Below, piece by piece: positions 7,240 through 25,286 of a stretch of 64,000 bases of DNA. A program made the translations under genes and the position numbers. Origin of the DNA: Catenulispora acidiphila DSM 44928 (GTDB taxonomy: Bacteria; Actinomycetota; Actinomycetes; Streptomycetales; Catenulisporaceae); the NCBI RefSeq assembly GCF_000024025.1, contig NC_013131.1, forward strand, positions 7,564,001 through 7,628,000, read 5' to 3'. Position 1 is the stretch's first letter, and the number at the start of each line of letters is the position of its first letter. Below the pieces are notes generated by a model. That model was not told the origin of the DNA. It ran no database searches and was given only the letters and a program-made list of their open reading frames with translations.

Positions 7240-7316
7240 GAGTGAACCATAAAGGTCCTTTGAGAGTTGAGCAGAACTCTGGGGGAGAGTAGTCTCCGAA
7301 GAAGGGGTATTCAACT

Positions 7317-7628
7317 GTGGCAATCGCGAGCATCGAAAGAAAAATGACGGCGATAGACGAACATCCGTCTCCAGACCAAGGCCGACGCCACCTGTTCGCC
7401 CGGTGGGTGGGTCGGCTTATCGGATCACCGCACCAGTCGGGGTTCCGGCAGGTCTATGTCGTCGAGAACCAGGACTGGCTGGCTCCGAAGAGCAACCTGT
7501 CCGACCAGGAGGCGTACGACGCGATCGTCGATCTCTATGAAAGCGTCACCGACGAGCAGTACGGCGTTGCGATCGCCGAACTGAAGAAGGCTCAGGCTCC
7601 GGAGAGCGACGACTCGCCGCCACATTGA
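7317..7628 (+). CDS. Small hypothetical protein
   Basis: 103 residues from a GTG start with a GAAGAAGGGG ribosome site about 8 bases upstream. The C-terminal half is acidic and helical (SDQEAYDAIVDLYESVTDEQ). There is no signal peptide or TM helix and no family was recognised. It lies between a membrane-protein gene and the CHAT/GTPase operon, separated from the latter by about 230 bp. Confidence 0.6.
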   Translation: MAIASIERKMTAIDEHPSPDQGRRHLFARWVGRLIGSPHQSGFRQVYVVENQDWLAPKSNLSDQEAYDAIVDLYESVTDEQYGVAIAELKKAQAPESDDSPPH

Positions 7629-7857
7629 TCCACCGAGGCGGTCACCGGACGAGCGCTCGGCGATGTGAGTGCAAGATTCGTCAGCGTTCTGCCACGACTG
7701 ACTCTGCCGGTCCCATCGCAGGCCCTGCACTGCTCTCGAGGCACGTCACTGCGGGACTGCGAACGACGGCATCCCGATCTTCATTCCGGCACCGGATCGC
7801 GGCGGCCGTGCCAGGCTGGTGGGGCTGAGTTTTGCGCTGGAATCCTTGGGGGGACTG

Positions 7858-10800
7858 ATGCGCGGGGACGAGACGGCGGCTGGTGCTGCCGCAGCCGACG
7901 AGGTCGAGGAGCTGGTTGGCAGATTCGCTCGCAGCGGTGACCGGGGTGCTATCGACAGGGCGGTCGCCGTCGCCGCGGCTGCCGTCGACGGGCTGGCGGA
8001 CGGTGATGTGGACCGTGCGGCGGCGCTGGCGAATCTCGCTGTGACGCTGATGCGGCGGTATGAGGCGCTCGGCGATGGCGCGGATCTCGAGCGGGCGCAC
8101 GAGTCGATCACGGTGGCCTGTGCTGAGGCGCCGCCTGGGAGTCCGCATGCCGAGGGTGTGCTGACCATCGCCGGCAGCGTCGCCATGACTCGGCATACGC
8201 GCTCCGGCGACGTCCAAGAGCTCAGGGAAGCGGTACGGATCACGCGCGCCTTGTGCGATGGGGCGGCTGAGTCCGCGCGGCGGCGCATGTATCTGAGCAA
8301 TCTGACCTTCATGCTCGTGCGGCTGGCTGAGGCTACCGATGACAGGGCTCTGCTTCTTGAAGCGGAGGCGGCTGGACGCGAGGCGGTCGTGTTGAGCGAC
8401 CCGGATGATCCGAGCAACGCGCTTGTCTACAACAACCTCGCCATCGCGCTGCACCGCCGCTACACCGTGTCCAATGATGTGGCGTTTCTGGCCGAGGCGG
8501 TCGAGTGGCAGGTCAAGACGCTGGCTGGGGTCGAGCCGGCGCACCAGGAGTATCGGAAGTGGCAATCCAACCATGGTGCGACGCTGCGCGAACTCCACGG
8601 TCGGACCGGCGAGGCGGAACTGCTGCGGCGGGCTGTCGAGGCCTGCCGGGCAGCGACTCAGGGGGCTGATCCCCGCCATCCCATGTTCGCCCACTGGCAG
8701 GCGAACCTTTCTGCGGCGCTGCTGCTCGCCTACCGGGAGTCGGGGGATTCCAGCCTGCTGAGGCAAGCGGTGACGGCCGGCCGTGCCGCGTACGAGGCGG
8801 CCGGGCCGGGGAGCCCTGATCTGCCGTTGTTGCTGACGGACCTCGGTGCGTTGCTCGACCAGGCGAGTCTGCGCACCAGCGACGCGGAGGAGCTGGCCCA
8901 GTCGGTGGAGATGCTGCGCCGGGCGGCGGTGACCGTGCCGCGCAAGCACGTGGCGTACTCCATCGTCCACACCAACTTGGCGATCGCCCTGCTGCGGACC
9001 GCCGAGGCGGACCCGGCCGGCGGATTCGTGCCGCTGCTCGCCGCGATCGGTCACGCGCGCAAGGCGCTCAAGCGGATCGGGCGCGACGATCCGCACCGGG
9101 CCGAGTTGCTGGGCGCCATGAGCGCCGCGCACCTTCGGCTGCACGGCTTCCGCGGCTTCGGCAGCGCTCTGATCCGCGCCGTCCGCGACGCGGAGGCGGC
9201 CTTGGCCGCCACGCCGAGCCGCCACCCGGACCGCGCGGTGCACCTGGGCCGGCTCGCCGTGGTGCGTTATACGCAGTACCAGCGCTACGGCGACCGGAAG
9301 CTGCTAATCGCGGCGCGCGACCTCCTGATCGAGGCGGGGCGGCAGCCGGGAGCCCGGCTGATGACCAGGATCGACGCGCTGCGCGGCGCGGGTGAGTACA
9401 GCGGCGAGGCCGGGCTCGGCAGCGACCGGCTCGGCCTGCTGGCGGAGGCCATCGACCTGGCGACCCGCGTCGCCCCGCGTACGCTGGCGCGGGTGGACCG
9501 CGAGCATCGGGTGAGCCTGCTGACGGGGCTGGCCACCGAGGTCGCGCAGGCCGCGTTGGACCAGGGGCAGCCTGAACGCGCGGTCGAGCTGTTGGAGCAG
9601 AGCCGAGGGCTGTTGGCCGCTGATGTGCTCGACGCTCGGGGCACGGATCTGGCGGCGCTGCGCGCGGTGCGGCCTGATGTGGCCGGAGAGGTCGTGGCCC
9701 TGCGAGCCCGGTGGGAGCGGCTGGATCGGGCGCAGCCACGACTCGGGGAGGTTACGGCGGATGCGCAGACCTCGGGCATACCAGCGGCTCAACCAGCGCC
9801 GTCGCAGTCAGCACCATCGGTGTCAGTGTCGGTGTCGGCGGCGGCGCCGACGGCATCACAGGCGTCAGCCGTCGACCTCCTCGAGGACCCCCAGCAGCTC
9901 TCCACTGAGCGGGCCGCCATCGGCGCCGCGTGGGACGCACTCGTCGCCGAGATCCGGACCCTGGTCGGCTTCGCCGACTTCATGCGGCCACCGCGCGTGC
10001 AGCGCCTGGTCGAGCAGCTTCCCGACGGTCCGGTCGTCTACGTCTACGCTGGATCGGAACGCAGCGACGCGCTGATCGTCTCCGGATCCGGCGTCGAGTG
10101 CGTGCGGCTGCCGAACCTCCGCGCAGCCGAGGCAACTACGCGCGCCGAACAGCTTCACGCCGCATTGGCCGACGCCGAGAGCGACTATGCGGACGTCGCC
10201 GAGGCTGCCCGGGAGAGTATGCGCGAGCTCCTGGTCTGGCTGTGGGACACCATCGCGCAACCGGTCGTGGCAGCCCTCGGATACGACGCCGCGCACGCTG
10301 ATCCCGCGAATCACGCCGATCCCGCCAATCCCGCCGATCTCCCGCGCATGTGGTGGTGTCCGGTCGGCGTGCTCAGCGAACTGCCGCTACACGCGGCCGA
10401 GTCCGGTCCGCACACCCTGCTCGACCGTGCCGTCCACTCCTACACTGCCACCTTGCGCGCGCTCGGTGACGCCCACTCCCGTCCCGTACCGCCGTCGCGC
10501 GCCGCGCTCGTCGTCGGCGCCCACGATCTCACCGGGTCCGGACGGCTACCGGCCGCCGAGCACGAAGTCCACACCGTAGGCCGCCTACTCCCCCACGCAA
10601 CGGTGCTCGACGCCCCGACCGCGGAGTCGGTGCGGACAGCCCTGCTCAGCCATCCGGTCGCTCACTTCGCCTGCCACGGCGTCGCCGATCGCAGCGACCC
10701 GGCCGCCGGTCTGCTGCTGCTCGCCGACCACGCCACCGATCCACTCACTGTCGCCGAAGTCAGTGCCCTGCGTCTGGACGGCCGGCTCGCGGTACTGACG

Positions 10801-11091
10801 GCGTGTCAGACCACTGTCTCCGCGCCCACGCTGGCCGACGAGTCGGTGCATCTGAGCGCCGCGTTCCAGTTGGCCGGGTACCGGGCCGTGGTGGGCACGC
10901 TGTGGTCGGTGTCCGACGAGGCCTCGGCCCGACTCGCCAAAGACTTCTACAACACGCTGACCGCCGAAGGTACCGCAGAGCTCGACACCGACCGCGCCGC
11001 GCGCGCCGTTCACGCCGCGGTACGCCGACTTCGCCGCCATTATCGGAACGCGCCGAAGGCCTGGGCCGGGTACGTCCATGTCGGCTGCTGA
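7858..11091 (+). CDS. TPR-CHAT caspase-like protein (first copy)
   Basis: 1077 residues. ATG 7858 is preferred over the in-frame GTG at 7819 because TTGGGGGGA sits just upstream. Residues about 20-620 are tandem alpha-helical TPR-like repeats (recurring NLAxxLxxRY patterns). After a Ser/Val/Ala/Pro linker (about 640-685), the C-terminal 350 residues form a CHAT domain, the caspase/separase-like peptidase fold. The catalytic pair is visible: His940 in HFACHG and Cys983 in LTACQT, and the PVGVLSELPLHAA and GTLWSVSDE motifs are also typical. It heads the operon with four GTPases (80-bp gap to the first). CHAT proteins of this form are usually proteases triggered through their repeats in bacterial conflict systems; the substrate is unknown. 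Confidence 0.9.
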   Translation: MRGDETAAGAAAADEVEELVGRFARSGDRGAIDRAVAVAAAAVDGLADGDVDRAAALANLAVTLMRRYEALGDGADLERAHESITVACAEAPPGSPHAEGVLTIAGSVAMTRHTRSGDVQELREAVRITRALCDGAAESARRRMYLSNLTFMLVRLAEATDDRALLLEAEAAGREAVVLSDPDDPSNALVYNNLAIALHRRYTVSNDVAFLAEAVEWQVKTLAGVEPAHQEYRKWQSNHGATLRELHGRTGEAELLRRAVEACRAATQGADPRHPMFAHWQANLSAALLLAYRESGDSSLLRQAVTAGRAAYEAAGPGSPDLPLLLTDLGALLDQASLRTSDAEELAQSVEMLRRAAVTVPRKHVAYSIVHTNLAIALLRTAEADPAGGFVPLLAAIGHARKALKRIGRDDPHRAELLGAMSAAHLRLHGFRGFGSALIRAVRDAEAALAATPSRHPDRAVHLGRLAVVRYTQYQRYGDRKLLIAARDLLIEAGRQPGARLMTRIDALRGAGEYSGEAGLGSDRLGLLAEAIDLATRVAPRTLARVDREHRVSLLTGLATEVAQAALDQGQPERAVELLEQSRGLLAADVLDARGTDLAALRAVRPDVAGEVVALRARWERLDRAQPRLGEVTADAQTSGIPAAQPAPSQSAPSVSVSVSAAAPTASQASAVDLLEDPQQLSTERAAIGAAWDALVAEIRTLVGFADFMRPPRVQRLVEQLPDGPVVYVYAGSERSDALIVSGSGVECVRLPNLRAAEATTRAEQLHAALADAESDYADVAEAARESMRELLVWLWDTIAQPVVAALGYDAAHADPANHADPANPADLPRMWWCPVGVLSELPLHAAESGPHTLLDRAVHSYTATLRALGDAHSRPVPPSRAALVVGAHDLTGSGRLPAAEHEVHTVGRLLPHATVLDAPTAESVRTALLSHPVAHFACHGVADRSDPAAGLLLLADHATDPLTVAEVSALRLDGRLAVLTACQTTVSAPTLADESVHLSAAFQLAGYRAVVGTLWSVSDEASARLAKDFYNTLTAEGTAELDTDRAARAVHAAVRRLRRHYRNAPKAWAGYVHVGC

Positions 11092-11171
11092 GCGCTCATA
11101 AGCACTTTTCGAGCAGGAAACAAGCGCCGGGCGATTTAACCGCGAGTAAGCCCTCTGGTCTGCTGAAACAC

Positions 11172-12896
11172 ATGGCAGACGACAACTCTTCCACCCTCGC
11201 GATCCTCACCGCGATCTTCCACGACCAGCCCGAGCTCCTCCGCGCGGTCAAGCTGGGCGACCTCCACTCGAGCCAGCTGCTCGAGGAGGTCCGCACCCAG
11301 AACAAGCTCTTCGGCGGCCCGGTCCGCCAGTTCGCGGTCGGGCGCACGGGAGCCGGCAAGACCACGCTCGGGAACCTGCTGTTCGGCGCCGAGGCGATGA
11401 AAGTGACCGGCTACAACGACTGCACCGACTACATCGGCCGGGTGCGCCTCAAGAGCGATATGTCCTACTTCGACACCCCTGGCGCCGGCGGCGACGACGA
11501 GTACGAGAACTACGCCCGCATGGCCCTGGGCCTGCCCCAGCTCAGCGTGCCCGAGGTCACCGAGTTCAGGCTGCTGGACTTCACCAACGCCACACTCGAC
11601 GCACGGCAAAGGGTCGAGAACGTCACCCAGACCGTGATCACCGCGGACGATTACGAGAAGGGGTTCGCGAAGAAGTATCCGCCCGACGTCCTCATGTATG
11701 TGGTGTCCCCGCACGTGCAGTTCGTGCGCACGGACCGTGAGTACCTCCAGGACATGCTCAAGCGGTACGGCGACCGGGTCGTCATCGCTCTCAACCGGTG
11801 GGACGGGATGACCGCCGAGAACCACGTGGAGAACGTGCGCCGGCAGATCGACACCGTCTACCGGCACGTGTCCCCTGACGGCTCGCTGCGCCCGCGGTAC
11901 GCCGAGTTCAACGCCCGCACCGGCTCCGGTATGGACGAGCTGACCCGGCACATCTGCGAGGTCATCGATCCGGCCAAGCTGGGCCGGATGCAGGCGGTGC
12001 TCGACGGCAGCCTGAAGGACCAGGCCCGCAAGGAGCGGGCCCGGCACTACCACCGCACTTTGGACCGGATCGCCGCACGCCTGGCCCTGCACACCGTCGA
12101 CCACCAGACCGCCGGGCTGGACCTGATCACGCTGGCCGCCGACGGCGTCGCCCAGTACGGCGTGCTGACCTTCGAGGCCGAGAACGAGGCCCAGGAGGTC
12201 CGCGACGAGTTGGCCCGCCACGTCGCGGACGAGGCCGAGCGAGTGCGCCGCGAGCGCACCGAGGACATCGTCACCCAGCAAGTGAAGACGGGCACCCGCG
12301 ACATCATCACCCAAGAGCCGGTCTACGACATCGAGGAGAAGATCGAGTACGAGACGCACCGGATCTCGGAGCAGATCAGCGAGAGCACCGGCGTCGGTTT
12401 GTGGAAGTCGATGGCGATCCAGACGGGCGCCGCCGTGGACCGCGCCGCCAACTGGCTGCAGGGCGGCACGCAGAAGGAGCGGGAGGCGATCAAGCACCAG
12501 GCGCGGAAGGACCAGGTCAAAATCACCACGCACATGGTGGAGAAGGACATCCAGGTCCCGGTCAAACGCTACGAGCAGAAGATCGCCAGTTATCAGGACA
12601 AGGTGATCGCCACCGTCACCGAGGTGGTCGGCATGACCGACACCGTGGTCGGCACCAGGGCCCTGCAGGGCGCGGTGCCGCTGATCGAACTGCTGCTGTC
12701 GATAGGGCACGGCGTCGAGCGGTTCTGCGTCGCGACCGGTGAGCGCAAGCCGATCGACGACTACGTCGCCGCCGCCCGCGACCAGATCGCCCTGGAGTTG
12801 GACCGGGTGCGCCGCCAGCTCGACCAGTTGATCGAGCGCGGCGCCCCGGCCGAGCAGCAGATCGCGGATCTGCTCGACTCCCTGTTCGCGAAGTAG
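11172..12896 (+). CDS. P-loop GTPase A of the CHAT operon
   Basis: 574 residues from ATG 11172; the longer upstream frame lies inside the CHAT gene and is not coding. The G1 loop is GRTGAGKT (57-64), G3 is DTPG (101-104), G4 is NRWD (208-211) and a G5-like NARTG lies near 248. Between G1 and G3 is a TGYNDCTD segment, probably switch I. After the GTPase domain comes a helical part, then charged repeats with VYDIEEKIEYETHRI, and a hydrophobic stretch near 500-515. The GNLL, DCTD, ALGLPQ and VYD elements are shared with GTPase B, so the two are paralogs. It is likely an NTP-dependent regulator or assembly factor for the neighbouring CHAT protein. The ribosome site is weak. Confidence 0.85.
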   Translation: MADDNSSTLAILTAIFHDQPELLRAVKLGDLHSSQLLEEVRTQNKLFGGPVRQFAVGRTGAGKTTLGNLLFGAEAMKVTGYNDCTDYIGRVRLKSDMSYFDTPGAGGDDEYENYARMALGLPQLSVPEVTEFRLLDFTNATLDARQRVENVTQTVITADDYEKGFAKKYPPDVLMYVVSPHVQFVRTDREYLQDMLKRYGDRVVIALNRWDGMTAENHVENVRRQIDTVYRHVSPDGSLRPRYAEFNARTGSGMDELTRHICEVIDPAKLGRMQAVLDGSLKDQARKERARHYHRTLDRIAARLALHTVDHQTAGLDLITLAADGVAQYGVLTFEAENEAQEVRDELARHVADEAERVRRERTEDIVTQQVKTGTRDIITQEPVYDIEEKIEYETHRISEQISESTGVGLWKSMAIQTGAAVDRAANWLQGGTQKEREAIKHQARKDQVKITTHMVEKDIQVPVKRYEQKIASYQDKVIATVTEVVGMTDTVVGTRALQGAVPLIELLLSIGHGVERFCVATGERKPIDDYVAAARDQIALELDRVRRQLDQLIERGAPAEQQIADLLDSLFAK

Positions 12897-12915
12897 CGGA
12901 GAGGACGCCTGACCG

Positions 12916-14628
12916 ATGCTCCGCGATCTCCACGAACCTTCGCTGGGCGCCGTGCGCGCCCGGCTGATCCAGCAGGAGCTGGCCGGCGGCGCCGCGTCCC
13001 GGCCGGTCGACGGCGCAGTTCCCGGCCTCGGAGGGGAGGGCCGGGGGCTGCCCCTGCTGGCCGCGACCGGCAAGACCCACAGCGGCAAGTCCACGCTCGG
13101 CAACCTGCTGGTCGGCATGGCAGGGCTGCTGCGTTCCACTGGCTTCCAGGACTGCACGGACGGCGCCGACGTGCTCCGGTTCCCGCGCGGGCTGCGCTAT
13201 TTGGACCTGCCGGGCGTGGCGAGCAGCGACATGCTGGAGAACGCCAACCGGGCCGTGCTCGGCCTGCCCCAGCATCCTGACCTCACACCAGTGCACGAGG
13301 TTCGGCTCCGTGGGTTCACGCCGGACGGGCCGGACCGCACCGACAGCCCGGCCGAAGCTCCCGGTGCGGCCGGAACCACGGAAGCTGCCGAAGCCGAAAA
13401 CGGGCGTATGTGGCCCGTCGATCGGCTCCGAACCGTGCTCCCCCGCCCCGACCTGGTGTTCTACGTCGTCGCCCCGCACCAGAACCTGAACCGGGCCGAA
13501 CAGCCCTACCTCGCCGACCTGCTCACGGCGTACGGCGCCGAACGCGTCCTGTTCGTCCTCAACATGTTCCACCGCGCCGACGGCACGCCCCAAGCCACCC
13601 CACAGAACCTCGACGACGTGCGCCGCAAGCTGGATCGAGCCTGCCGGGCCGTCGGCGCGGCACTGAAACCGGATCGGCTTGTCGCCCTCGACTGCCGCAC
13701 CGGCGAGGGCCTCGACCGGCTGCTGAGCGCCGCGCAACAGATCTTGGACGACGACGGCCTGCTCGCCGAGGTCGTGATCCGCCAGCAGCAGGAGGCGCCG
13801 GCCCGGTACCGAGCCGAAGTGGCAGCCGCGGTGGCCGACTACGTCACGCAGGCCGCCACCCTAACCCCGGGCCCTGACGGCACCGCGCACGAAGACCTTG
13901 AAACGGCCGCGAACCGGCTGCTCGCCTATGCCCGGCGGCTCGGGACCATCCCATCAGGGTTCGACGAGAACCGTTGGCGTACCTCCTTCCGCGCCGTCGC
14001 CGCCGCGGCGGCCGCCGAGCTGCGCAACGAAGCCACCGAACCGATCATCGAACGGCGCTCACGGGACGTCACCCGCACCGAGACCGTCTATGACTGGATC
14101 ACCGAGACCGACTACAGCCACCCCGTCTACGAGACCCGCCGAGTGCGGGTCGACTCGTCGATCGCAGATCTCGACGACCTGGTCACGGCCGTGAAGCGGG
14201 CGTGGCGCGGCGAACGCTTCGCCGCCGAGCGCTGGGAGAGCCAGCAGGTCGTCGTCGGCTACGCCAGCATCGAGCGCCAAGTGGCGGTCGGTACGCGCGA
14301 GGTCTACGACCACACCGAGCACTGGGAGGAGAACGTCGGGACGCGGGTCACCGCCGTCTACTACTCCCCCTACGGCGCGATCGGCCCGGCGCTGCTGCTC
14401 GCGGCCTGGGCGGCGGCGCTGCGCGGACGGAGGCCGGGCAAGGACCTCGGACCGGCGTCGGTTTACGGGCGTGCTCTTCAGGAAGCTGTCGCACATTCCG
14501 CGCCGGGCGCCCCAACGGAACCCTGGGCGATCTTCGCCCAGAACATCATGCCCGCTGCTTCTGTCCCCTTGTGGCACTCGGCGGCAGACCTCACAGACCG
14601 GCCCGACCTTCCGGAGGAAGCGTCATGA
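12916..14628 (+). CDS. P-loop GTPase B of the CHAT operon (divergent paralog of A)
   Basis: 570 residues. G1 is GKTHSGKST (52-60), an unusual Walker A with an extra inserted residue type; G3 is DLPG (97-100). G4 is degraded to NMFHRAD (216-222), so guanine specificity may be altered. The TGFQDCTD switch, VLGLPQ motif and C-terminal VYDWITETDY / VYETRRV repeats match GTPase A. A hydrophobic segment (AIGPALLLAAWAAAL, near 485) could touch membrane. It starts 19 bp after gene A and its stop overlaps the start of gene C by 4 bp (ATGA), so translation is coupled. A and B could form a heterodimer, one partner active and one partly degenerate; this is inference. Confidence 0.8.
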   Translation: MLRDLHEPSLGAVRARLIQQELAGGAASRPVDGAVPGLGGEGRGLPLLAATGKTHSGKSTLGNLLVGMAGLLRSTGFQDCTDGADVLRFPRGLRYLDLPGVASSDMLENANRAVLGLPQHPDLTPVHEVRLRGFTPDGPDRTDSPAEAPGAAGTTEAAEAENGRMWPVDRLRTVLPRPDLVFYVVAPHQNLNRAEQPYLADLLTAYGAERVLFVLNMFHRADGTPQATPQNLDDVRRKLDRACRAVGAALKPDRLVALDCRTGEGLDRLLSAAQQILDDDGLLAEVVIRQQQEAPARYRAEVAAAVADYVTQAATLTPGPDGTAHEDLETAANRLLAYARRLGTIPSGFDENRWRTSFRAVAAAAAAELRNEATEPIIERRSRDVTRTETVYDWITETDYSHPVYETRRVRVDSSIADLDDLVTAVKRAWRGERFAAERWESQQVVVGYASIERQVAVGTREVYDHTEHWEENVGTRVTAVYYSPYGAIGPALLLAAWAAALRGRRPGKDLGPASVYGRALQEAVAHSAPGAPTEPWAIFAQNIMPAASVPLWHSAADLTDRPDLPEEAS

Positions 14629-17105
14629 CCACGCCACAGGCTCGAGAAGCACAAACGAAAGTGCCGAAGCAGACAGCACCGCAGACGACGGAGCCGACCC
14701 GCCCTGCCGCCGACAACCACGCCGCCGCGCGCACAGCAGCACGCACCGAAGCCCGCATCGCCGCCGTGCTGGCCGCCCGCCGCGCGGGCCTCCCCCACCT
14801 GGCCGACGCCGTCGACCGCTGGCGCCACATCGCCGACAGCCTGGCCCAGCTCGACGCGGCGCTGACGGCGCTGAGCGAGCAGCCCGCCGTGCCCGAGCCG
14901 GCGAAACTCATCCTGAGCGCGCTCGCCGACACCGGCCCGGTGCGAGCCGAGATCGCCGCGCTGCGCGCCGACCTGCGCAACCTGCACGCCCGCCTGGGCC
15001 GGCAGACCCTCAACATCGGGATCTGCGGCCGGGCTCGGATGGGCAAGTCGACGTTCCTGCAATCCGCCAGCGGCCTGGGCGAGGAGCAAGTCCCCACCGG
15101 ATCCGGACTGCCGGTCACCGCCGTGCGCAGCCGTCTCTACCACAGCGCCACCGCCACAGGCGCGCGGGTCGAGCGGCTGAGCCCAGACCGCTTCGTCACC
15201 GAGGTGGTCCGTCCCTACTACCTCGCTCTGGGCCATCCACAACCCCCTGCGACACTGGACGCCTTCGCCGCCGACGACTCCATCGAACGGCTGGATCCGC
15301 AGCGGGTGCCGGACGGCACCAGCCTGCTGGACGATCTGCTCAAGATGCGCCGCTCGCTGCCGCGCTACCGCGAGGAGCTGGCCGGCGACGTGATCGATGT
15401 CGAGCTCGACACGCTGCGCCGCTACGTCGCCTATCCGACGCGCGAGGAACTGGCCGCCGAGCGTGACTCCGGCGCGGTCCTGGACCGGCACTACCTCGCC
15501 GTCGGCGACGTGCAGATCCGGTGCGCGTTCCCCCGCGCGGACGTCGCCGGGATCGGCCTGATCGACCTGCCGGGGCTGGGCGAGCTGGCCCCCGAGGCCG
15601 AGGCGCACCACCTCGGCGGGCTGGAGCACGAGGTGGACGCGGCGCTGATCATCGTGCGGCCCACCGACGTCAGCGCGTTCTGGGACGACTCGGCCAAGCG
15701 GGCGAAGCAGCTGATCGAGCGAGCCTGCGGCGACCTGCTCGACCCGCGGGACTTCGCGTTCATCGTGATCAACGACGACGGCGCCCGGCCGGACCTGTAC
15801 GCCGCGCTGCGCGACTCGATCCTGGACCGGGTCAACGGCGGTGTCGACGGGCGCAACTACACCGTGCTCACCGTCGACGCCAAGGACCCGGCCGCGGTCG
15901 GCGCGCAGGTGCTCGATCCGCTGCTGGACCACCTGGCCGCGCACGCCGGGCGGATGGACGCCGCACTGCGCCGCGGCCACCGGGACCGGGCCGAGCAGCT
16001 CGCCGCCCGGATCCGCGGGCATCTGGGCGAGATCGGGGAGGCGCTGCGGCGCGTGCCGCTGGCCAACTCCGCGCGGCTGCTGGAGAGCCAGTCCGAGACG
16101 CTGCACCGGCAGCTGGCCGCCGCGCTCAAGGAAGTGGTCGACGAATACGAGCGGCGGGCTCGGGAAAAAGATCAGGACTATCAGGCGAAGGTGGAGGTCG
16201 CTTATCTGGAGGTGGAGGCCTGGCGCGCCCGCGGTTTCGGGGTCGGAGAGGACGCGTGGCGGGCGAACGCGCTCGCCGAGGGGAAGGTGCGGGGCAACGT
16301 CGGCGGATTCGTGATCGACGAGCTGAACCGCATCCGCGTGGAGATGGGCGCGGGTTTCCGGCGGCTCGACGCGTACTTCGCCGACCGGGTCGCCGAGCTG
16401 CGCGGGGATGTGGCGGCTGCGCTTGAGGTGCAGCTCGGCGGATTGTGGAAGCGGACGATCAGCGGCACGGGGCACGGCTCCAGCGTGGAGGCGCTCGCCG
16501 GGCAGCCCGACGGAGAGTCTGCCGGAACGCCTGCCGAATCCTCCGCCGAGCCGGCGACGGGGTCGAGCGCCGAGCCCACCGGCGACGAGGCGCTCCGGAT
16601 GCTGGCCGAGCGCCTGCACGACGCGGCCGATCCCTGCCGGATCCTGGCCCGCGCCGTCGAAGACCTGCTGGACCTCACCCTCGACTACAACTCGCACGTC
16701 TACCCCTGGATCGCCCAGCACCTGCGCAAGCTCAACCAGGAGTACACCGACGACGCCGGGGTCCGGCGGACCCGCTTCGTCGTCGAACTCACCGAAAGCG
16801 GCACCGAGCGCCTCTACCAGGAGATCTTCAAGTTCACCGGGGAGGCCTCCTACGCGACCCGCAATGCTCTGCTGGACGGCGACACGCGCCCGGCGCAAGT
16901 GCTGGCGGCTGCGGCCGAGTACTTCGCCGACGCCTTTCTGCGATCCGGCGGGGTGCGGGCGGAGTTCGGGGCGCTGAGCCGCTCCTACCAGGACGAGCTG
17001 TGGCCCGGGCTGTTCGCCGAGCTCCAGCCGCAGAACGCGAATCTGACCCGGGTGCGGCTGCTGGCGCGCACCCTCGCCGAGTTGACGGAAGGAGCCCGGC
17101 TGTGA
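14625..17105 (+). CDS. Dynamin-like large GTPase C of the CHAT operon
   Basis: 826 residues; ATG 14625 has a GGAGGAAG site upstream and overlaps the previous stop. An Ala/Arg-rich helical N-terminus (1-125) precedes G1 GRARMGKS (135-142), a PTGSGLPVTAV switch I as in dynamin-like proteins, and G3 DLPG (314-317). A G4-like VINDD follows. Residues about 430-600 are predicted helical or coiled coil, then an Ala/Glu/Pro/Ser linker (about 620-660) and another helical domain. This matches a bacterial dynamin or GTPase-coiled-coil layout, likely self-assembling. It ends with a 4-bp GTGA overlap into gene D. Confidence 0.8.
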   Translation: MTTPQAREAQTKVPKQTAPQTTEPTRPAADNHAAARTAARTEARIAAVLAARRAGLPHLADAVDRWRHIADSLAQLDAALTALSEQPAVPEPAKLILSALADTGPVRAEIAALRADLRNLHARLGRQTLNIGICGRARMGKSTFLQSASGLGEEQVPTGSGLPVTAVRSRLYHSATATGARVERLSPDRFVTEVVRPYYLALGHPQPPATLDAFAADDSIERLDPQRVPDGTSLLDDLLKMRRSLPRYREELAGDVIDVELDTLRRYVAYPTREELAAERDSGAVLDRHYLAVGDVQIRCAFPRADVAGIGLIDLPGLGELAPEAEAHHLGGLEHEVDAALIIVRPTDVSAFWDDSAKRAKQLIERACGDLLDPRDFAFIVINDDGARPDLYAALRDSILDRVNGGVDGRNYTVLTVDAKDPAAVGAQVLDPLLDHLAAHAGRMDAALRRGHRDRAEQLAARIRGHLGEIGEALRRVPLANSARLLESQSETLHRQLAAALKEVVDEYERRAREKDQDYQAKVEVAYLEVEAWRARGFGVGEDAWRANALAEGKVRGNVGGFVIDELNRIRVEMGAGFRRLDAYFADRVAELRGDVAAALEVQLGGLWKRTISGTGHGSSVEALAGQPDGESAGTPAESSAEPATGSSAEPTGDEALRMLAERLHDAADPCRILARAVEDLLDLTLDYNSHVYPWIAQHLRKLNQEYTDDAGVRRTRFVVELTESGTERLYQEIFKFTGEASYATRNALLDGDTRPAQVLAAAAEYFADAFLRSGGVRAEFGALSRSYQDELWPGLFAELQPQNANLTRVRLLARTLAELTEGARL

Positions 17106-18319
17106 GCGACACGCAGCCTGTGACGTCCATACAGACGGACGACCTGGAGATGCGGGTGGTCCTGGTCGGTCCCATGGGCGTGGGCAAGACCTCGCTGATG
17201 ACCACCCTGGCCGACGGCGGCGCGGCGCTGCTCGGCGGCACCCGCGTCCTATTGGAGTTCGACGAGCCGACGGCCGAGATGATCCGTACCTGCAAGGCCG
17301 CGCTCGACGGCTCCCTGGCCACCGAGCAGTTTCAGGTCAACGCCATGCGTCCCTCGCAGGAGCTGACCGAGTACCGCTACGCCGTCAATCCGCGCATCAG
17401 CGGCGTGGACCGGTTCCGCTTCCCGCTGACCGTGCTGGACATGCCGGGCGGCTGGTTCGGCCCTTCCGGGATCCCGGCCAGCCTCGCGCGCAACCGGGAG
17501 ATCTTCGACGAGTTCCTCGGCAGCGCCTCCACCCTGCTGGTCCCGATCGACGCCACAGTACTGATGGAGGCCCGGCTCCAGCACCAGGTCGCGGCCCTGC
17601 CGGAGATCCTGCGGATCCAGGACGTGATGTCGGCGGTGGAGCGGTGGACGAAGGACCGGCGCGGGCTCGACGGCTCGCCGCTGCCGGCCACCGTCGTGCT
17701 GTGCCCGGTCAAGTGCGAGACGTACGTGCATCCGGTGGGCGGCCACGCCAATCCCGCCGCGGACAGCATGCGGGAGCTGGTGGACCGGTTCTACACCGCG
17801 GCGCTGCGCGAACTGCTGGAGACTCAGCAGGTGGCGCTGGGCCGCATCCTGTACTGCCCGGTCGAGACGATCGGCCCGGTCCGGCTGACCCGGGCCGACT
17901 GGGTCGAACGCGACGGGATGCTCGAATGCCGGCCGTCGTACGAGAAGGTGGGCGGTGCCACCCGGCGACTGCCGCACGGCGGAGAGGAGCTGTTCGCGTT
18001 CCTGTGCGCCGAGGTGCTCACCCGGCTGCGCTCGCACTGGTTCGAGGTCGCCGAGTGGGAGCGTACGCAGGCCGAGCGGCCGGTCGCGCCGCCGACGGGC
18101 GCCGGGCTGTTCGCCAAGGCGTGGTTCTACCTGGTCGATGCCTGGGACGAACGTACCGACCGGGTACTGCACCGGCAGCAGCAGTCCCGGCTGCTGTTGG
18201 AGCTGGCCCAGCTCGACAAGGCCGTCTCGGCGATCGCCGAGCGCGAGAAGCGGGCCTTCGAGAACCGGCCGGACAACCGGTTCGCCGTGTTGTATCAGGC
18301 CGCACCCGGCTGGATGTGA
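17102..18319 (+). CDS. Small P-loop GTPase D of the CHAT operon
   Basis: 405 residues from GTG 17102, which overlaps the upstream stop (GTGA). G1 is GPMGVGKT (23-30) and G3 is DMPG (113-116). Residues about 185-205 (TVVLCPVKCETY) occupy the place of G4, where K and E stand in for the usual NKxD. The rest is an alpha/beta GTPase core followed by a basic/helical tail ending near the membrane-protein gene (2-bp gap). The family looks like the TRAFAC GTPases seen in multi-GTPase conflict operons, but the exact family is uncertain. Confidence 0.75.
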   Translation: MSDTQPVTSIQTDDLEMRVVLVGPMGVGKTSLMTTLADGGAALLGGTRVLLEFDEPTAEMIRTCKAALDGSLATEQFQVNAMRPSQELTEYRYAVNPRISGVDRFRFPLTVLDMPGGWFGPSGIPASLARNREIFDEFLGSASTLLVPIDATVLMEARLQHQVAALPEILRIQDVMSAVERWTKDRRGLDGSPLPATVVLCPVKCETYVHPVGGHANPAADSMRELVDRFYTAALRELLETQQVALGRILYCPVETIGPVRLTRADWVERDGMLECRPSYEKVGGATRRLPHGGEELFAFLCAEVLTRLRSHWFEVAEWERTQAERPVAPPTGAGLFAKAWFYLVDAWDERTDRVLHRQQQSRLLLELAQLDKAVSAIAEREKRAFENRPDNRFAVLYQAAPGWM

Positions 18320-18321
18320 CC

Positions 18322-19308
18322 ATGGAGATCTTCGTACGGACGAAGTCGTACCGACAGGAGTACGGATTCCTGGGCGCGTCCCCGGACGACTGGTGGGTGG
18401 AGTACCGGCGGTTGACGACCGTCGAGCGGCCGGGGCTGATCGCGCGGGCCGAGGGTGGGGCGTGGCAGGTGCTGCTCACCGGGATCCCGACGCCGCGTAC
18501 CGATGCCGCGGACCGGCGGATCACGTACTCGGTGCTGTTCGAAGGATCCGGGGCGCCGCGCGGGGAGGATCGCGAGGTGCTGATACGGGTCGTGCGAGCC
18601 TGGCTGGACGCTCTGGCCGATCCGGAGGCCGTGGAGTCCGGGATCGGAGCCGGGCTCGACGAGCACCTCGCCGAGGAGAAGATCGTGCGGCTGCTCGCGG
18701 CGGGGGCACAGGGAGACGTGCGTCCCGGGGTCACCAGGATCCCGAGCCTCGTCGAGCAGCCCGGCCGCCCCGGGAGCGGGGGTCTCGTCGGCCGCTCCGG
18801 CCGGCCCGGACTGTCCGAACCGCCTGATCCGCCTGATCCGCTTGATCCGCCCGACGATCCGCTGACCGACGAGGAGCTCGCCGCTCCGGCGGTCGCGGTA
18901 CGGGCCGTCGCCGCGCAGCTGGATCCGGTGCCGCCGCCGGCAGCCGGGGCGTCGTCGGTATCCGTCGGGAGCGTGCGAACCGCGGAGGACCGACACCACC
19001 TCGTCGCGGCGGTGGAGTCCCTGGCCGCGAACCGGTCCGGATTCGCCGGCTATCTCAACATCCCGCGCAAGGCCGAGAGCGCGGCCCAGGCTTGGAACCA
19101 CCTCGCCAAACCCGGGCGGCTCTGCGTCGTGCTCGCCGATCTGCCCCACCAGGCGGTGCAGGAGGCAAAAAAACTCTTGGCGGTCCGGCCGGATCCCGAC
19201 CCCGAGCCGGATCGCAAACGCCTGGTTCGGGCGGCGGGCTGGCTGCTGGCGGCACTCGTCCTGGGAGTGGCGGCAGTGGCGGTGTGGTACCTGCTGCGCC
19301 GCCGGTGA
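18322..19308 (+). CDS. Tail-anchored membrane protein of the CHAT/GTPase operon
   Basis: 328 residues from ATG 18322, two bases after the stop of GTPase D. The N-terminal 140 residues look like a compact alpha/beta domain (MEIFVRTKSYRQEYGFLGAS at the start). A linker follows with repeated DPP units at about 170-182. A second small domain lies at about 215-290. A single helix (about 303-324, WLLAALVLGVAAVAVWYLL) is followed by three arginines, so most of the protein is probably cytoplasmic with a C-terminal anchor. It could tether the GTPases or the CHAT protein to the membrane. No family was recognised. Confidence 0.75.
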   Translation: MEIFVRTKSYRQEYGFLGASPDDWWVEYRRLTTVERPGLIARAEGGAWQVLLTGIPTPRTDAADRRITYSVLFEGSGAPRGEDREVLIRVVRAWLDALADPEAVESGIGAGLDEHLAEEKIVRLLAAGAQGDVRPGVTRIPSLVEQPGRPGSGGLVGRSGRPGLSEPPDPPDPLDPPDDPLTDEELAAPAVAVRAVAAQLDPVPPPAAGASSVSVGSVRTAEDRHHLVAAVESLAANRSGFAGYLNIPRKAESAAQAWNHLAKPGRLCVVLADLPHQAVQEAKKLLAVRPDPDPEPDRKRLVRAAGWLLAALVLGVAAVAVWYLLRRR

Positions 19309-19580
19309 CGTCGGCCTCGGAAGGACGCTCGGTACGCCCCACACCGCAGCCCCCGGACCTGATCCGATCACTCGACGCGCTGCGGGATTCGGTCAGCGGA
19401 GCGGCGGGCAGGGCGATCCGCAAGATCGGTTCAGAGATCACGAAGGAGGTGACCCGCCGTCTCGCCGACGATGCCAGTGACGTCGGCGACGCCAGTGACG
19501 TCAGTGACGATCCAGGGCACGCCCCGGACCATCCGCCCGGACCGCCACCGCGTCACGATGACGGGCAGGCCAAGGCATAA
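19305..19580 (+). CDS. Small acidic protein ending the CHAT/GTPase operon
   Basis: 91 residues. GTG 19305 overlaps the upstream stop by 4 bp (GTGA), the same coupling used elsewhere in this operon. An amphipathic helix (about 19-50, LIRSLDALRDSVSGAAGRAI and onward) precedes an Asp/Ser/Val repeat tract (DASDVGDASDVSDD) and a Pro/His tail. No family was recognised. It stops 17 bp before the convergent TIR gene. Coding status rests mainly on coupling and codon bias. Confidence 0.5.
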   Translation: MTSASEGRSVRPTPQPPDLIRSLDALRDSVSGAAGRAIRKIGSEITKEVTRRLADDASDVGDASDVSDDPGHAPDHPPGPPPRHDDGQAKA

Positions 19581-19597
19581 GGGCAGCCACGCCGTCG

Positions 19598-21355
19598 TCA
19601 GGGCCGGTCCGGCCGCCTTCCCTCCGCCGGACCGAAGTCGCCGGCCGTCTGCCAGGCGCCGTCCGGCGGCATGGACACGCGACAGTCCGCATAGCTCAGC
19701 CGTTTGCCGATTCGTTCCCGGAAGGCAGTGCCCTCAGCGACGCGGACGTAGTTGAAGCCGCCCAGGTCGGCGATCGGACGGTGGTCGCCGACCTGGAGGA
19801 TCAGCGTGGCGCGCGGGTGGTAGGCCAGGGCCATGCCGAGTTCGATCAGGACGTTGGGGCGGGCTTGCATGGAGTGGCCGGTCTCGAAGCCGGGCTCGGA
19901 CGGGCCGGCCAGTTCGGGATGCAGGCGGACGATGTCATCGGGCGTCATGATCACGACCACCGCCTTGGCCCGCGGGATCGCCTCCCGCAGCACCCGGCCG
20001 AGGAACGGCATCGGCTGCTGGAGCAGGCCCACCGCCTCGTCCCATTCCACCGGGTGCAGCCCGAACGCCCGCAGCAGGTCGAACGTGGCCACGCGGGCTC
20101 GTTCGTCGCGGCCGTGGATGACGAACACCGTGTCCTTGTCTGTGACCTGATAGGCGGCCTCCGGGTTCACCGGAGCTGCCGGGCCGGCGGAATCGACCGG
20201 AGCAGCGGAGGCGACCGAATGGGCCGAAGCGGCCGGCATGATCGGCAGCAAGCTCGCCGAACGCGCGGTCCGCGTGTCCAGGTAGGCGATCTGGTCGTCC
20301 AGGAGTTCCAGGAACTCCTGCGCGTCCGCAGCATCGCGCAGGAACGGATTCACCGCCCGCAGCTGCTCCGCTTCCGACAGCGCGCGCCGCATGTTGTCGT
20401 CCGCGATCTCGGCCGTCTGTCTCAGCAGTTTGAGATCCCCGAGCAACATCAGCGCCTGCCCGCTGCGCAGCCGCAGCAGCTCCGCCTTGGCACTGTCGGT
20501 CGCCCCGGTACGGATCAGCTCACTGCTGAGCGTGTCCAAGGCCTCGTTCAGCTCCCGGGCCTGCCCGTCGCGCCGCCACACCCTCATCTCATACCGGAGC
20601 TTCGCGGCGTGCAGCAGGTACCTGGCCAGTGGCGGGATCTCGGTACCGCCCGACGACCAGATCCACCGACTGGCCCGGGCGTCGGAGCCGGGACCGACAG
20701 CCAGCAGGAGGCGACGGTCCGGCGTGTACAAGGGACGAGCGAAGGGCTCCCACAGCTGAACCCCTCGGTCGAGCGTGGCGCCCAGGAGATCCGGCGGCTC
20801 CGTATTCGAAGCAGTCGAACTCGTAGAATCTGCCGCATCCGTCGCATCCGTCGCATCAGTCGCATCAGTCGGCACCAGCGTGGCCAGCCATCCGAGCAGC
20901 GAGGCGTCCGCGGGATCAGCCTCGGGCACTCCGGCCAGGAACAACCGCGCCTGTCCCAGCATGTGCGGCGCGTACCGGGCACTGATCGCGTTCCAGGTCC
21001 GGTCGAAGTCCCGCCACCATGTCCACTCCCCCTCCTTCGGCAGGCGAGTCTCAGGCGGCGCCAACGCGACGGACAGGTTGAAGACGTCGTGATGCTTCCG
21101 CAGCACCGCCTGGCTGTCCGCGAACGGCCGCTCCTGGAGTGCGAGCACGCCCTCGAACTCCTCCGGCACCCCCTCCGCCGCCGACGGCGGGACCTGCGGC
21201 ACATCGAACCCCTCGACCGCCTCGGTCATCTGGAACGCCAGCCGACACCCGCGCCAGATCTCACACAGTCCCCGGTACGCGGCCGGTGCCTCCGGACCGG
21301 TGGCGGGCGCGTAAAGATGAACGACGTACTGCTGATCAAGCAGCTGCGCCGTCAC
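19598..21355 (-). CDS. CATRA-like protein with C-terminal TIR-like NADase domain
   Basis: 585 residues; GTG 21355 overlaps the preceding stop (GTGA). The N-terminal 350 residues resemble the protein at 23602: both open with a VHxxxxxEG-type strand, contain a QARLFLA / EARLFLA motif and a GRYL(L/M)HxAKxRxE(M/L)R motif, and continue as helical repeats. I take this as a CATRA-type domain. Residues about 406-555 match the TIR-like nucleotide-binding family (PF10137): VFVIHGRDE, AVVVIMTPDD and RPNVLIELG, with likely catalytic Glu505. Such domains cleave NAD+ when activated. The linker holds TDATDATDAAD repeats. It is the likely toxic effector of the minus-strand module; no upstream activator other than the neighbours is visible. 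Confidence 0.85.
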   Translation of the reverse strand: MTAQLLDQQYVVHLYAPATGPEAPAAYRGLCEIWRGCRLAFQMTEAVEGFDVPQVPPSAAEGVPEEFEGVLALQERPFADSQAVLRKHHDVFNLSVALAPPETRLPKEGEWTWWRDFDRTWNAISARYAPHMLGQARLFLAGVPEADPADASLLGWLATLVPTDATDATDATDAADSTSSTASNTEPPDLLGATLDRGVQLWEPFARPLYTPDRRLLLAVGPGSDARASRWIWSSGGTEIPPLARYLLHAAKLRYEMRVWRRDGQARELNEALDTLSSELIRTGATDSAKAELLRLRSGQALMLLGDLKLLRQTAEIADDNMRRALSEAEQLRAVNPFLRDAADAQEFLELLDDQIAYLDTRTARSASLLPIMPAASAHSVASAAPVDSAGPAAPVNPEAAYQVTDKDTVFVIHGRDERARVATFDLLRAFGLHPVEWDEAVGLLQQPMPFLGRVLREAIPRAKAVVVIMTPDDIVRLHPELAGPSEPGFETGHSMQARPNVLIELGMALAYHPRATLILQVGDHRPIADLGGFNYVRVAEGTAFRERIGKRLSYADCRVSMPPDGAWQTAGDFGPAEGRRPDRP

Positions 21356-21690
21356 CGGGCCCGCCCCGGGTCGCCACCACCGCGCAGCATGTGAATCAGT
21401 TCATTGACGCGCTCCCGGATCTTCGGCGGCACCGGTATCCGCACGACACCGGTCAGCCCCGCCTCGGGCCGCGTGTTCCCTGCCCCGATCGGCGTAATCC
21501 GCATCGGCCCGGCCAGCTCCAGATCAGCGGTGGCCACCGCGATGGCGTCCACGTCATCGGCAGGAGCCGCGGCGAGCGCGTCCAGCATGCCTGCCAGCAG
21601 CTCCCACCGCGCCGGAGTCAGCTCCCAGTATTCGACATGACTCAGAGCCCTGACAGCTTCCGCGCGGATCTGCGCGAGGTCCTCACTCAC
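21352..21690 (-). CDS. CATASP-like small protein (first copy)
   Basis: 112 residues from GTG 21690, overlapping the stop of the regulator gene by 8 bp and the start of the TIR gene by 4 bp. A helical N-terminus leads to (V)ATxxLELAGP, then VPPKIRERVNELIHMLRG. The protein at 23225 shares the same order (VATMELLAPP, then APARVRERVNKLIERLV), so the two are homologs attached to the two CATRA-like genes. This fits the CATRA-associated small protein family described with CATRA conflict systems. It is probably a partner or inhibitor of the following CATRA protein; that role is inferred. Confidence 0.75.
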   Translation of the reverse strand: MSEDLAQIRAEAVRALSHVEYWELTPARWELLAGMLDALAAAPADDVDAIAVATADLELAGPMRITPIGAGNTRPEAGLTGVVRIPVPPKIRERVNELIHMLRGGGDPGRAR

Positions 21691-23056
21691 CGACGCGCCT
21701 CCCGTCCTCGTCCAGACCGCTCAGATACCGCTCCACCGCGGGCAGGTCCACCGTCTCAAGATCCTCCTGCCGCAGCACGATCCGCAGCTCCTGCGCGGCC
21801 ACCGAACCGGTCCAGCCCGCGCGCACGAACGTGTCCACGATCAGCAACAACAACTCGGTACCCGTCACCCCCGGCACCCGCGACAGCCGCGACCCGACCA
21901 GTGGAATCGCCACCGGCTTGAGCTGCCCGCGCCGCCCTATCGCAACCCACAGCTGCTCCAGACTGAGCCGGAGCTCCTCCCGGCTCGACTCGCCGACCAG
22001 ATCGTTGCGCTGCCGGGTGTAGGCGACGCCGAAGATCCACCGGTCCTCATGCGGCAGCGCCACCACGGTCCCGACCGGATAGCGGGTGCGCTTGCCCTTC
22101 GGCTTGTCCCGGGGACTCTCCCGGACCACCGGAACCACCCCGCGCAGCCCTCGCCGCAGCTCGCGGTCCAGCGTCTTCACGTCCCCGCCGTAGAGCCGGT
22201 GCAGCAGCTGGCCCTGCACGCTCTCGGCGCTGATCAGCTCATTGCGCTCGGTCGAGGTGTCGAAGGTGTCGCAGAACCCGACGACCAGGTTCGCCGCCTT
22301 CTGCTCGAACAGGTCGCCGCGCACCACCGACAGCCGGGCCCGCAGTCCCGTGAACTGCCGCTGTAACAGCTCATCGCCCCGCCGCGCCCGTAACCGCCCA
22401 CGCAGCTCCGCCACCTGTGCGCGGGCTTGGGGGTCCTGCGGCCGACGATCAGCGATCCGCACCGCGGTGGCCAGCGCCTCGTCGATCCGTCCCAGCTCGG
22501 TCTGGATCTGGATCAGCTCGCTGCAAGCGGACTCGTACAGCCCGTGCAGCCGCCGCATCCGATCGGCGACGAAACCGACCGGCTCGCAAGCCACCAGCGG
22601 ATCGCCGCGCCAGAGCTCCAGCGCCTCCTGCAGCAGTTCGCAGGAACGGCTCGCCGACTGCCCGGCCGCCATCGCATCGACCACCAGCCGTTCGAAGCGC
22701 ACGGCATCGATCTCATCGGGACCGCACACCAGGCGGTACGCGGACTCCGACTCCGAGCCGACGACCACCGGTTCGGTACGCACCACAGATTTCTCCGGAG
22801 CGACGCCCTCGGCGTCCAACAGCCGGCGCAGGGCCAGGATCCGCTGCTGGACCTCGGTACGGCTCGAACGATCGCGGCGGCTGTGGTGGCCCGAAGCCGG
22901 CCACAGCTCCTGGTGCATACGGCTGGAGGCCACCGAATCGCCGTCCGCGGCGACCAACAACGCCAGTGCCCGCGCCGACAGCGGAGGGACCCCGACCGGT
23001 TTCCCCTCCACCTCGAGCAGCAGCGGCCCGAGAACGTTGATCTGCAAACGTGCCAT
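21683..23056 (-). CDS. SARP-type regulator fused to a ThsA-like macro domain
   Basis: 457 residues from ATG 23056 with a GGGGAG site upstream; the longer frame to 23275 crosses the divergent promoter and is not used. Residues 1-110 form the winged-helix DNA-binding domain of SARP proteins (LGPLLLEVEGKP, ALALLVAADGD, then the RTEVQQRILALRRLL helix). Residues about 117-222 are the BTAD helical domain (ERLVVDAMAAG to DRRPQDPQARAQ). Residues about 240-430 differ from normal SARPs: RGDLFEQKAANLVVGFCDTFDT, later ISAESVQGQLL, VALPHEDRWIFGVAYT and VAIPLVGSRLSRVPG match the macro domain of Thoeris ThsA (DUF6430, PF20016). That domain binds ADP-ribose-type ligands. The gene heads the minus operon with a TIR gene, suggesting it senses a TIR product. 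Confidence 0.85.
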   Translation of the reverse strand: MARLQINVLGPLLLEVEGKPVGVPPLSARALALLVAADGDSVASSRMHQELWPASGHHSRRDRSSRTEVQQRILALRRLLDAEGVAPEKSVVRTEPVVVGSESESAYRLVCGPDEIDAVRFERLVVDAMAAGQSASRSCELLQEALELWRGDPLVACEPVGFVADRMRRLHGLYESACSELIQIQTELGRIDEALATAVRIADRRPQDPQARAQVAELRGRLRARRGDELLQRQFTGLRARLSVVRGDLFEQKAANLVVGFCDTFDTSTERNELISAESVQGQLLHRLYGGDVKTLDRELRRGLRGVVPVVRESPRDKPKGKRTRYPVGTVVALPHEDRWIFGVAYTRQRNDLVGESSREELRLSLEQLWVAIGRRGQLKPVAIPLVGSRLSRVPGVTGTELLLLIVDTFVRAGWTGSVAAQELRIVLRQEDLETVDLPAVERYLSGLDEDGRRVGE

Positions 23057-23224
23057 TGCGATCTCCCCTGCCGCCACGCCGCAATTTCCTTCGGCGAGGA
23101 AAAGTCTACGGACGATGATCTCCCCACTGCGGATAAGTCGGGGAAACCCTGAATACGTATTCTTATAGCGGTGTGACGTGCGGTTGTAGCCTGATAACGC
23201 GGAGCGCCGGCGCGAAGGGGCGGG
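23057..23224. promoter_or_regulatory. Divergent promoter region of the two CATRA-like operons
   Basis: 168 bp separate the two start codons. It contains a perfect 12-bp palindrome, GAATACGTATTC (23151-23162), followed by TTATAG. Local A+T content is higher than around it. The palindrome is a candidate operator for the regulator encoded at 21683-23056. Confidence 0.6.
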
Positions 23225-23605
23225 ATGAGCGGGAAACCGAGAAACTATCAGGGGATTGTCTACGCGGAGGCTCACGCACTGCTGCGGCGGACGCTTGAGT
23301 GGGAGTTTCCCGAACGCCGCTGGAATCGGGTCGACGATGCGCTGGCGGGAATGGAGTCAGCCCTCGACGGCGGCTCGTTGCAGACGTTCGAGGACACGGT
23401 CGCCACGATGGAACTGCTCGCCCCGCCACGAGTCTCCACGAGGCTCGGCGATCGGCCGGTGGTACCGGCTCCGGCTCGTGTGCGCGAGCGCGTCAACAAG
23501 CTGATTGAGCGGCTGGTGCGGCTGGTCGATGACGCTGATGCCGACGACGCCGAGGATGCCGCCGACGACACAGGGCTTTCGCAAACGGCTGACCCGGAAG
23601 CATGA
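23225..23605 (+). CDS. CATASP-like small protein (second copy)
   Basis: 126 residues from ATG 23225 with a GAAGGGGCGGG site. It shares VATMELLAPP and the ARVRERVNKLIERLVRL motif with the protein at 21352. The N-terminal part is helical (YAEAHALLRRTLEWEFPERR) and the C-terminus is an acidic Asp/Ala tract. The stop overlaps the next start by 4 bp (ATGA). It probably works with the CATRA-like membrane protein that follows. Confidence 0.75.
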   Translation: MSGKPRNYQGIVYAEAHALLRRTLEWEFPERRWNRVDDALAGMESALDGGSLQTFEDTVATMELLAPPRVSTRLGDRPVVPAPARVRERVNKLIERLVRLVDDADADDAEDAADDTGLSQTADPEA

Positions 23606-25278: not shown

Positions 25279-25286
25279 GAGGCGAC

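Follow-up and report, generated by a model that had tools for sequence, protein, structure and literature searches.

The Eleos system, which we take to be what the LeoA and LeoBC models of PADLOC describe, is a small operon for defence that encodes GTPases of the dynamin type, and Csx29, the TPR-CHAT protease of type III-E systems, is activated in an RNA-guided manner. Nucleoside triphosphate (NTP)-dependent conflict systems of the DO-GTPase/GAP1 type use a GTPase switch with caspase-superfamily effectors, according to the sections used here of Kaur et al. 2020 (PMC7159879). CATRA systems, represented in Pfam by CATRA-N, CATRA-C and CATASP, are also linked to caspase-like proteins (PMC8195603, excerpts), and the large membrane GTPase DynA gives population-level protection in phage resistance (PMC8844932, abstract). 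Here we describe an operon of seven genes (positions 7858-19580, + strand) in a 64,000-nucleotide window, meaning the whole stretch of DNA analysed, from the soil bacterium Catenulispora acidiphila DSM 44928, whose genome is a single contig of 10,467,782 bases. It encodes a CHAT protein, four GTPases labelled A to D, a C-terminally anchored protein labelled TA and a small protein; loci compared with it carry labels beginning with L. With a confidence that falls a little short of even, we favour reading this operon as a composite conflict module, in which a membrane GTPase switch, C-D-TA, would be coupled to exchangeable caspase-like effectors.

The DO-GTPase/GAP1 systems resemble this locus in their GTPase switch, which is of TRAFAC type and frequently sits at the membrane, and in their variable partners and caspase-superfamily peptidase effectors (PMC7159879, sections used here), and the D family of the operon is a distant DO-GTPase2 relative. 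They differ in that no GAP1 was detected in the operon, whose genes instead include a GTPase of dynamin type and a protein anchored at its C-terminus; the text of PMC7159879 does not use the word dynamin. An earlier note on this DNA, made from the sequence alone, stated that multi-GTPase conflict operons are known in actinobacteria, and the printed account of DO-GTPase/GAP1, caspase-superfamily effectors included, bears this out. In CATRA systems the likeness lies in the link to caspase-like proteins and in the fact that they adjoin the core genes in several loci, the difference in that CATRA proteins are here separate genes beside the operon: Pfam finds no CATRA-N or CATRA-C domain in the proteins of 7858-19580, and both are present next door. 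For DynA, the abstract names no protease. The match to Eleos is weak in this operon's family, with LeoBC found in 2 of 10 C family members (best E 8e-4), and it is partial for A (to LeoBC, 4.2e-5) and B (to LeoA, 1.4e-5), covering about 60 residues in each. The CHAT protein shares a CHAT peptidase with Csx29 and has a weak sequence match to the solved protein (1.1e-5).

Organization of the operon

The seven genes run head to tail, as follows:

7858..11091, + strand: CHAT protein, 1077 amino acids, C-terminal CHAT domain (Pfam CHAT, motifs)
11172..12896, + strand: GTPase A, 574 amino acids, motifs GRTGAGKT, DTPG and NRWD (Pfam MMR_HSR1 3e-7, scanned in a longer reading of the frame; motifs)
12916..14628, + strand: GTPase B, 570 amino acids, paralogue of A with a degenerate G4 motif (alignment, search, motifs)
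14625..17105, + strand: GTPase C, 826 amino acids, predicted dynamin/IRG-like, core gene 1 (relatives; Dynamin_N in family members)
17102..18319, + strand: GTPase D, 405 amino acids, distant DO-GTPase2 relative with a PVKCE motif, core gene 2 (family, profile-profile comparison)
18316..19308, + strand: TA, 330 amino acids, N-domain tentatively longin/TagF-like, linker and C-terminal transmembrane helix, core gene 3 (family, helix prediction, model)
19305..19580, + strand: small protein, 91 amino acids with an acidic tail, in the variable fourth-gene slot (4-bp overlap GTGA)

This order and these coordinates agree with the earlier note, as do its tight junctions from 12916 on, its four P-loop GTPases, its C-terminally anchored protein and its small acidic protein at the end of the operon. 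Read off the sequence, 80 base pairs (bp) separate CHAT from A and 19 bp separate A from B, while B-C, C-D, D-TA and TA-small all overlap by 4 bp. A home-made gene caller based on codon usage found the same genes, with the exception of the small one, and placed the start of C later, at 14661. P-loop and DxPG motifs are present in each of the four GTPases. Pfam recognises CHAT in the first protein and, above its cut-off, MMR_HSR1 in A; B, C and D have matches of GTPase type that stay below the cut-offs, TA and the small protein have no match at E 0.1, and no GAP1 family is among the matches of the operon genes. A scan of 7240-19700 for promoters and terminators gave no promoter-like site and a single terminator-like site, on the minus strand, with no excess over shuffled sequences.

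C, D and TA form a recurrent unit

Around relatives of C we found a repeated pattern in which C is followed by D, then TA and often a small gene. A search with the C alignment through a single genome of each species, from which the best 80 of 108 relatives were kept, contributed to a set in which D and TA follow C on the same strand at 66 of the 90 loci with a C gene (none was called at L036 and L069). After removal of L048, L056 and L070, near copies of L029, L031 and L030, D and TA come within four genes after C, on the same strand, at 63 of 87 loci, in six phyla. These counts rest on home-made gene calls and iterated profiles, and some of the loci scored as lacking D and TA may reflect contig ends or gene-call failures. 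The arrangement is found in 22 of 24 loci of Actinomycetota, 7 of 8 order mates, all 7 of Pseudomonadota, both of Spirochaetota, the single loci of Thermodesulfobacteriota and Verrucomicrobiota, 21 of 39 of Cyanobacteriota, 2 of 4 plasmid records and not in the one locus of Bacillota. At 28 of the 34 actinobacterial loci listed, the C-D junction is -4 or -1 bp. Since homologues of all three genes adjoin in distant phyla, the grouping is more than chance, and gene order supports C-D-TA as a recurrent, membrane-associated GTPase unit. The treatment of all four GTPases as one system in the earlier note finds no support: C and D go with TA, and the sampled genomes yielded no relatives of A and B.

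The position after TA is occupied by a small gene in 32 loci, whose products sort into 18 groups that show no similarity to one another at E 0.01; some of these genes, mainly in genomes of low guanine-cytosine content, may be unrelated neighbours or gene-call artefacts. The small protein of this operon has no match to the 32 products at the same threshold. With 18 dissimilar groups of products, the slot is variable, as expected of a place for sensors or effectors. At L053 (15049-19296), a protein of 1415 residues follows C, D, TA and the fourth gene; its start looks TIR/SEFIR-like by eye, and it is perhaps another effector.

No description of C-D-TA was found in the open-access literature, as covered by titles and the starts of abstracts among top-ranked results. 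There is a fair chance that the unit deserves a name of its own.

Relationship of D to the DO-GTPases

The operon might simply be a known DO-GTPase/GAP1 system, an explanation that we consider highly improbable even though the D family is related to DO-GTPase2. This relationship appears as matches to DO-GTPase2 (PF19993) at E <= 1 in 3 of 10 D family members (best 2.8e-11) and, in profile-profile comparison of the D family with six proteins found by PF19993, as a match at 93.6% (E 2.2e-7). The surroundings of the six proteins are nonetheless different. There, a protein of 789-935 amino acids, presumed to be GAP1 from its place and size, adjoins the GTPases, and neither C nor TA has a match at E 0.01. 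TA was itself tried as GAP1 and rejected, as the profile of the six presumed GAP1 proteins gives it a probability of 0.1.

Two D genes are found inside the core at L060, L077 and L108, and at L064 a second, longer D protein precedes C; these doubled genes recall the doubled GTPases behind the name DO-GTPases. At one of the six DO-GTPase2 loci, in a genome of the same genus, a CHAT gene recognised by our own profile (3.2e-48) lies beside the locus (L131, 755-3451).

GTPase C and the possibility of a membrane upkeep role

We predict C to be a large dynamin/IRG-like GTPase, for which membrane binding and GTP-dependent assembly would be expected. Dynamin_N matches 8 of 10 C family members at E <= 0.01 (best 1.6e-5); the C of this operon is not among them and scores 15.2 bits against a cut-off of 27. 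Among the 197 genomes sampled from the order, 9 have a relative of C at E 1e-5, the operon's own genome included. Relatives are carried by a same-genus genome (G025), by a Catenulispora record (L056) and by actinobacterial and cyanobacterial plasmid records. A collection of phages gave no match to C at E 1e-3. In a tree of 88 C proteins built by a quick method, phyla are mixed.

The dynamin-like character of the family also suits another explanation, which is that C-D-TA serves general membrane upkeep (dynamin-like remodelling under envelope stress) with CHAT as a mere passenger. We rate it as improbable, if less so than a known DO-GTPase/GAP1 system. Cyanobacterial loci, which make up 39 of the 87 deduplicated ones, include several that by eye lie among ordinary-looking genes, and DynA of Bacillus subtilis gives membranes support against antibiotics and phage (PMC8844932, abstract). 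The patchy spread of C within the order, its presence on plasmids, the mixing of phyla in its tree and the variable fourth gene are, however, unlike what upkeep genes show.

The anchor and fold of TA

A single hydrophobic helix, at about 302-329 of 330 residues, is found in the TA of this operon. In its family, a hydrophobic stretch above the Kyte-Doolittle threshold is present in 63 of 68 members, and the last such stretch ends within 40 residues of the C-terminus in 52 of 68.

Longin and TagF folds often serve GTPases. A structure model of TA (pLDDT 82.5, pTM 0.76) placed TagF first in a Foldseek search (E 6e-3, probability 0.72), followed by chains of FLCN, GATOR1, SEAC and DENND10 with insignificant E-values and unrelated folds between them. 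When a second aligner re-ranked the list from Foldseek, DENND10, an archaeal longin domain, TagF and GATOR1/SEAC led, with Z <= 4.1. Local hhalign of TA and TagF gave a score of 17.65, where the highest of 60 column shuffles was 17.62; we take this as no more than suggestive. TagF_N has no match in 10 TA members at E <= 1 and is not among the 25 families listed out of 71 in a comparison with 51 TA members. As a tentative lead from the model, then, the presumably cytoplasmic domain of TA resembles longin/TagF folds, from which we infer that TA may dock or regulate the GTPases.

TssM is an NTPase, and at six annotated type VI secretion loci (L137-L142) tagF directly follows tssM, as TA adjoins D.

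Proximity to CHAT, caspase and CATRA genes

The CHAT domain of the first protein scores 152.9 bits against a Pfam (PF12770) cut-off of 24, with E 1.7e-44. It carries HFACHG at 936-941 and TACQT with C983, giving the dyad H940/C983, in which H940 is presumed to be the dyad histidine by analogy with CHAT peptidases. The label TPR-CHAT given to this protein earlier is borne out for the CHAT domain and Cys983 and is tentative for the TPR part: Pfam finds no TPR family in it at E up to 0.1, and the helical-repeat look of its N-terminal half is by eye only.

The association of CHAT with C was counted in 29 actinobacterial genomes with C, this operon excluded, that total 239.7 Mb (megabases) and hold 119 CHAT and 12 CATRA-N matches; the actinobacterial loci L033, L067, L069 and L074 and the plasmid records L023 and L024 are not in this set. 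A CHAT gene lies within 10 kb (kilobases) of C in 7 of the 29 genomes compared to 0.24 expected (Poisson 8e-9, about 29-fold excess), and a CATRA gene in 4 of 29 compared to 0.03 expected (2e-8), these expectations assuming uniform placement in the genome, whereas defence genes cluster. The seven CHAT loci amount to about five lineages, because two of them (L043 and L062) are nearly identical copies and another two (L049 and L052) are sister rows on the C tree. Several of the associations are close. CHAT shares 4 bp with the fourth gene at L052, is joined at 12 bp at L043 and L062 and, at L024, ends 65 bp before C. C14 caspases accompany CHAT at L024, L043 and L063 (Pfam) and at L062 (blastp cluster only). 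CATRA genes adjoin the core in the surroundings of this operon and at L029, L049, L052 and L054; at L049, CATRA and CHAT lie on opposite sides of the core.

On the C tree as a whole, 13 of 88 rows, this operon included, have CHAT in the stretch around C, four of these labels being cyanobacterial (L073, L078, L100 and L103) and based on our own profile alone. The label is scattered, with 11 changes compared to a shuffled mean of 12.3 and 74 of 500 shuffles as low. With changes near the shuffled mean, the pairing of CHAT and C has been gained or lost many times. The co-occurrence of the GTPases with CHAT proteins that the earlier note proposed to look for is therefore found as an excess of neighbours (7 of 29 genomes against 0.24 expected) and not as a rule, since C and D usually lie apart from CHAT, a separation that the note itself named as counting against its idea.

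These data are also what bears on the main rival explanation, namely that there are two units, CHAT-A-B and C-D-TA-small, which became neighbours by clustering in a defence island and share a transcript by accident. We regard this as unlikely, and less so than the upkeep role. The many C rows without CHAT fit it, as do the island in which the operon sits, with a further CHAT gene and two CATRA units close by, and the finding of CHAT near 1 of 6 DO-GTPase2 loci (L131). It does not account well for the 4-bp overlap of B and C that ties A and B to the core, for the joining of CHAT and core genes within 65 bp at L052, L043/L062 and L024, or for the excess of CHAT near C.

GTPases A and B

A and B stand in tandem and share 31-33% identity. 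The G4-like motif of B reads NMFH and is degenerate, so that its guanine specificity is unsure. Since B overlaps C by 4 bp, A and B are probably made together with the core. Searches returned only A and B themselves in a sample of 197 genomes of the order (E 1e-10), in a phylum sample of 396 genomes (E 1e-8), with an A/B profile in a class sample of 394 genomes (E 1e-5) and with the same profile in the own genome; the three genome samples overlap. Two A/B peptide patterns run against the genome collection likewise found only A and B, such scans using a few short exact peptides that may miss a distant relative. A alone had no relative among plasmids (1e-5), phages (1e-3) or viral contigs. Among the matches listed for the proteins of the compared loci, the A/B profile has one further, weak match, at L091 (E 0.0045), and by profile A/B and C show a weak link (16.7%). 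A structure model of A reached a pLDDT of 40.7 and was discarded.

A proposed GTPase-gated protease switch

Our favoured reading of a composite conflict module starts from computed features: the composition of the operon, the conserved core, the topology of TA and the recurrent proximity to CHAT, caspase and CATRA genes. Onto the C-D-TA heart, evolution would repeatedly have grafted a small gene that varies and a protease of caspase type (CHAT, C14 caspase or CATRA-CHAT). At rest, TA would hold C and D at the membrane. The trigger could be membrane damage caused by a phage, or an invader signal that the variable parts sense; in this operon, these parts may be A, B and the CHAT protein's helical repeats. 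The trigger would alter the nucleotide state or assembly of C and D, and this change would free or cluster the CHAT protease, which would then cut a target in the cell or a partner and so stop the infected cell. A and B may add to the switch or act as further sensors. Any defence function being predicted, we put the operon forward as a testable candidate for the cell-suicide type of defence.

A number of points weigh against the composite module. As CHAT is missing from the stretch examined in 75 of the 88 C rows, the core does not need CHAT, and the expectation behind the excess of CHAT near C takes placement to be uniform, whereas defence genes cluster. Within the operon, CHAT is set apart from A by 80 bp, and a role of A and B draws no support from relatives, none being found in the samples searched. 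PADLOC matches are weak only, chiefly to LeoA/LeoBC, PF19993 does not match the D of this operon, and its C is on a long branch of the tree. The fold matches of TA are weak as well: no Foldseek E is below 1e-3, unrelated folds stand between the longin rows, the best Z of 4.1 may mean merely a common arrangement by the tool's own guide, and by profile TA matches TagF with a probability of 0.9-2.0.

The idea of a GTPase switch that controls the protease at the membrane, raised in the earlier note, keeps its ground for the recurring C-D-TA unit and the excess of CHAT near C and loses it for the involvement of all four GTPases. A bolder version, which we hold to be doubtful, is that C-D-TA is an undescribed ternary conflict system of a dynamin-like GTPase, a DO-like GTPase and a longin/TagF-type membrane regulator. 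It would be a plug-in trigger that repeatedly captured CHAT, caspase and CATRA genes, with two orphan GTPases here, and a GTPase-gated counterpart of caspase-activating platforms. Its grammar of a GTPase switch, a constant partner and variable effectors, caspases among them, is already known from NTP-dependent conflict systems (PMC7159879, sections used here).

If the proposed switch is real, bacteria would have a modular GTPase trigger that turns on proteases of caspase type at the membrane, and this trigger, present in six phyla among the loci compared, would seem to have moved from one to another. Dynamin-type GTPases, which in bacteria are known mainly for membrane work, would then be linked with the programmed death of cells in multicellular bacteria. 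Mutations at a handful of sites (the P-loops of C and D, the anchor of TA and Cys983) would bear directly on the control of a caspase-like protease by GTP.

Neighbouring genes

Upstream of CHAT on the same strand (5449-7628) lie a small open reading frame, whose best Pfam match is at 0.019, and a gene for a protein of 596 residues with hydrophobic helices and no Pfam match at E 0.1.

Downstream, 19598-28517 holds two CATRA units back to back, the first on the minus and the second on the plus strand:

19598..21355, - strand: CATRA-N/CATRA-C and CAP12 TIR protein, unit 1 (Pfam)
21352..21690, - strand: CATASP small protein, unit 1 (Pfam)
21683..23056, - strand: BTAD and ThsA-type macro protein, unit 1 (Pfam)
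23351..23605, + strand: CATASP small protein, unit 2 (Pfam, profile 29-83 of 86; called start probably too late)
23746..25278, + strand: CATRA protein with C-terminal hydrophobic helices, unit 2 (Pfam, hydrophobicity)
25368..28517, + strand: second CHAT protein, 1049 amino acids, unit 2 (Pfam 1.5e-42)

In the first of these units, the BTAD-macro fusion adjoining the TIR protein is a hint of nucleotide signalling.

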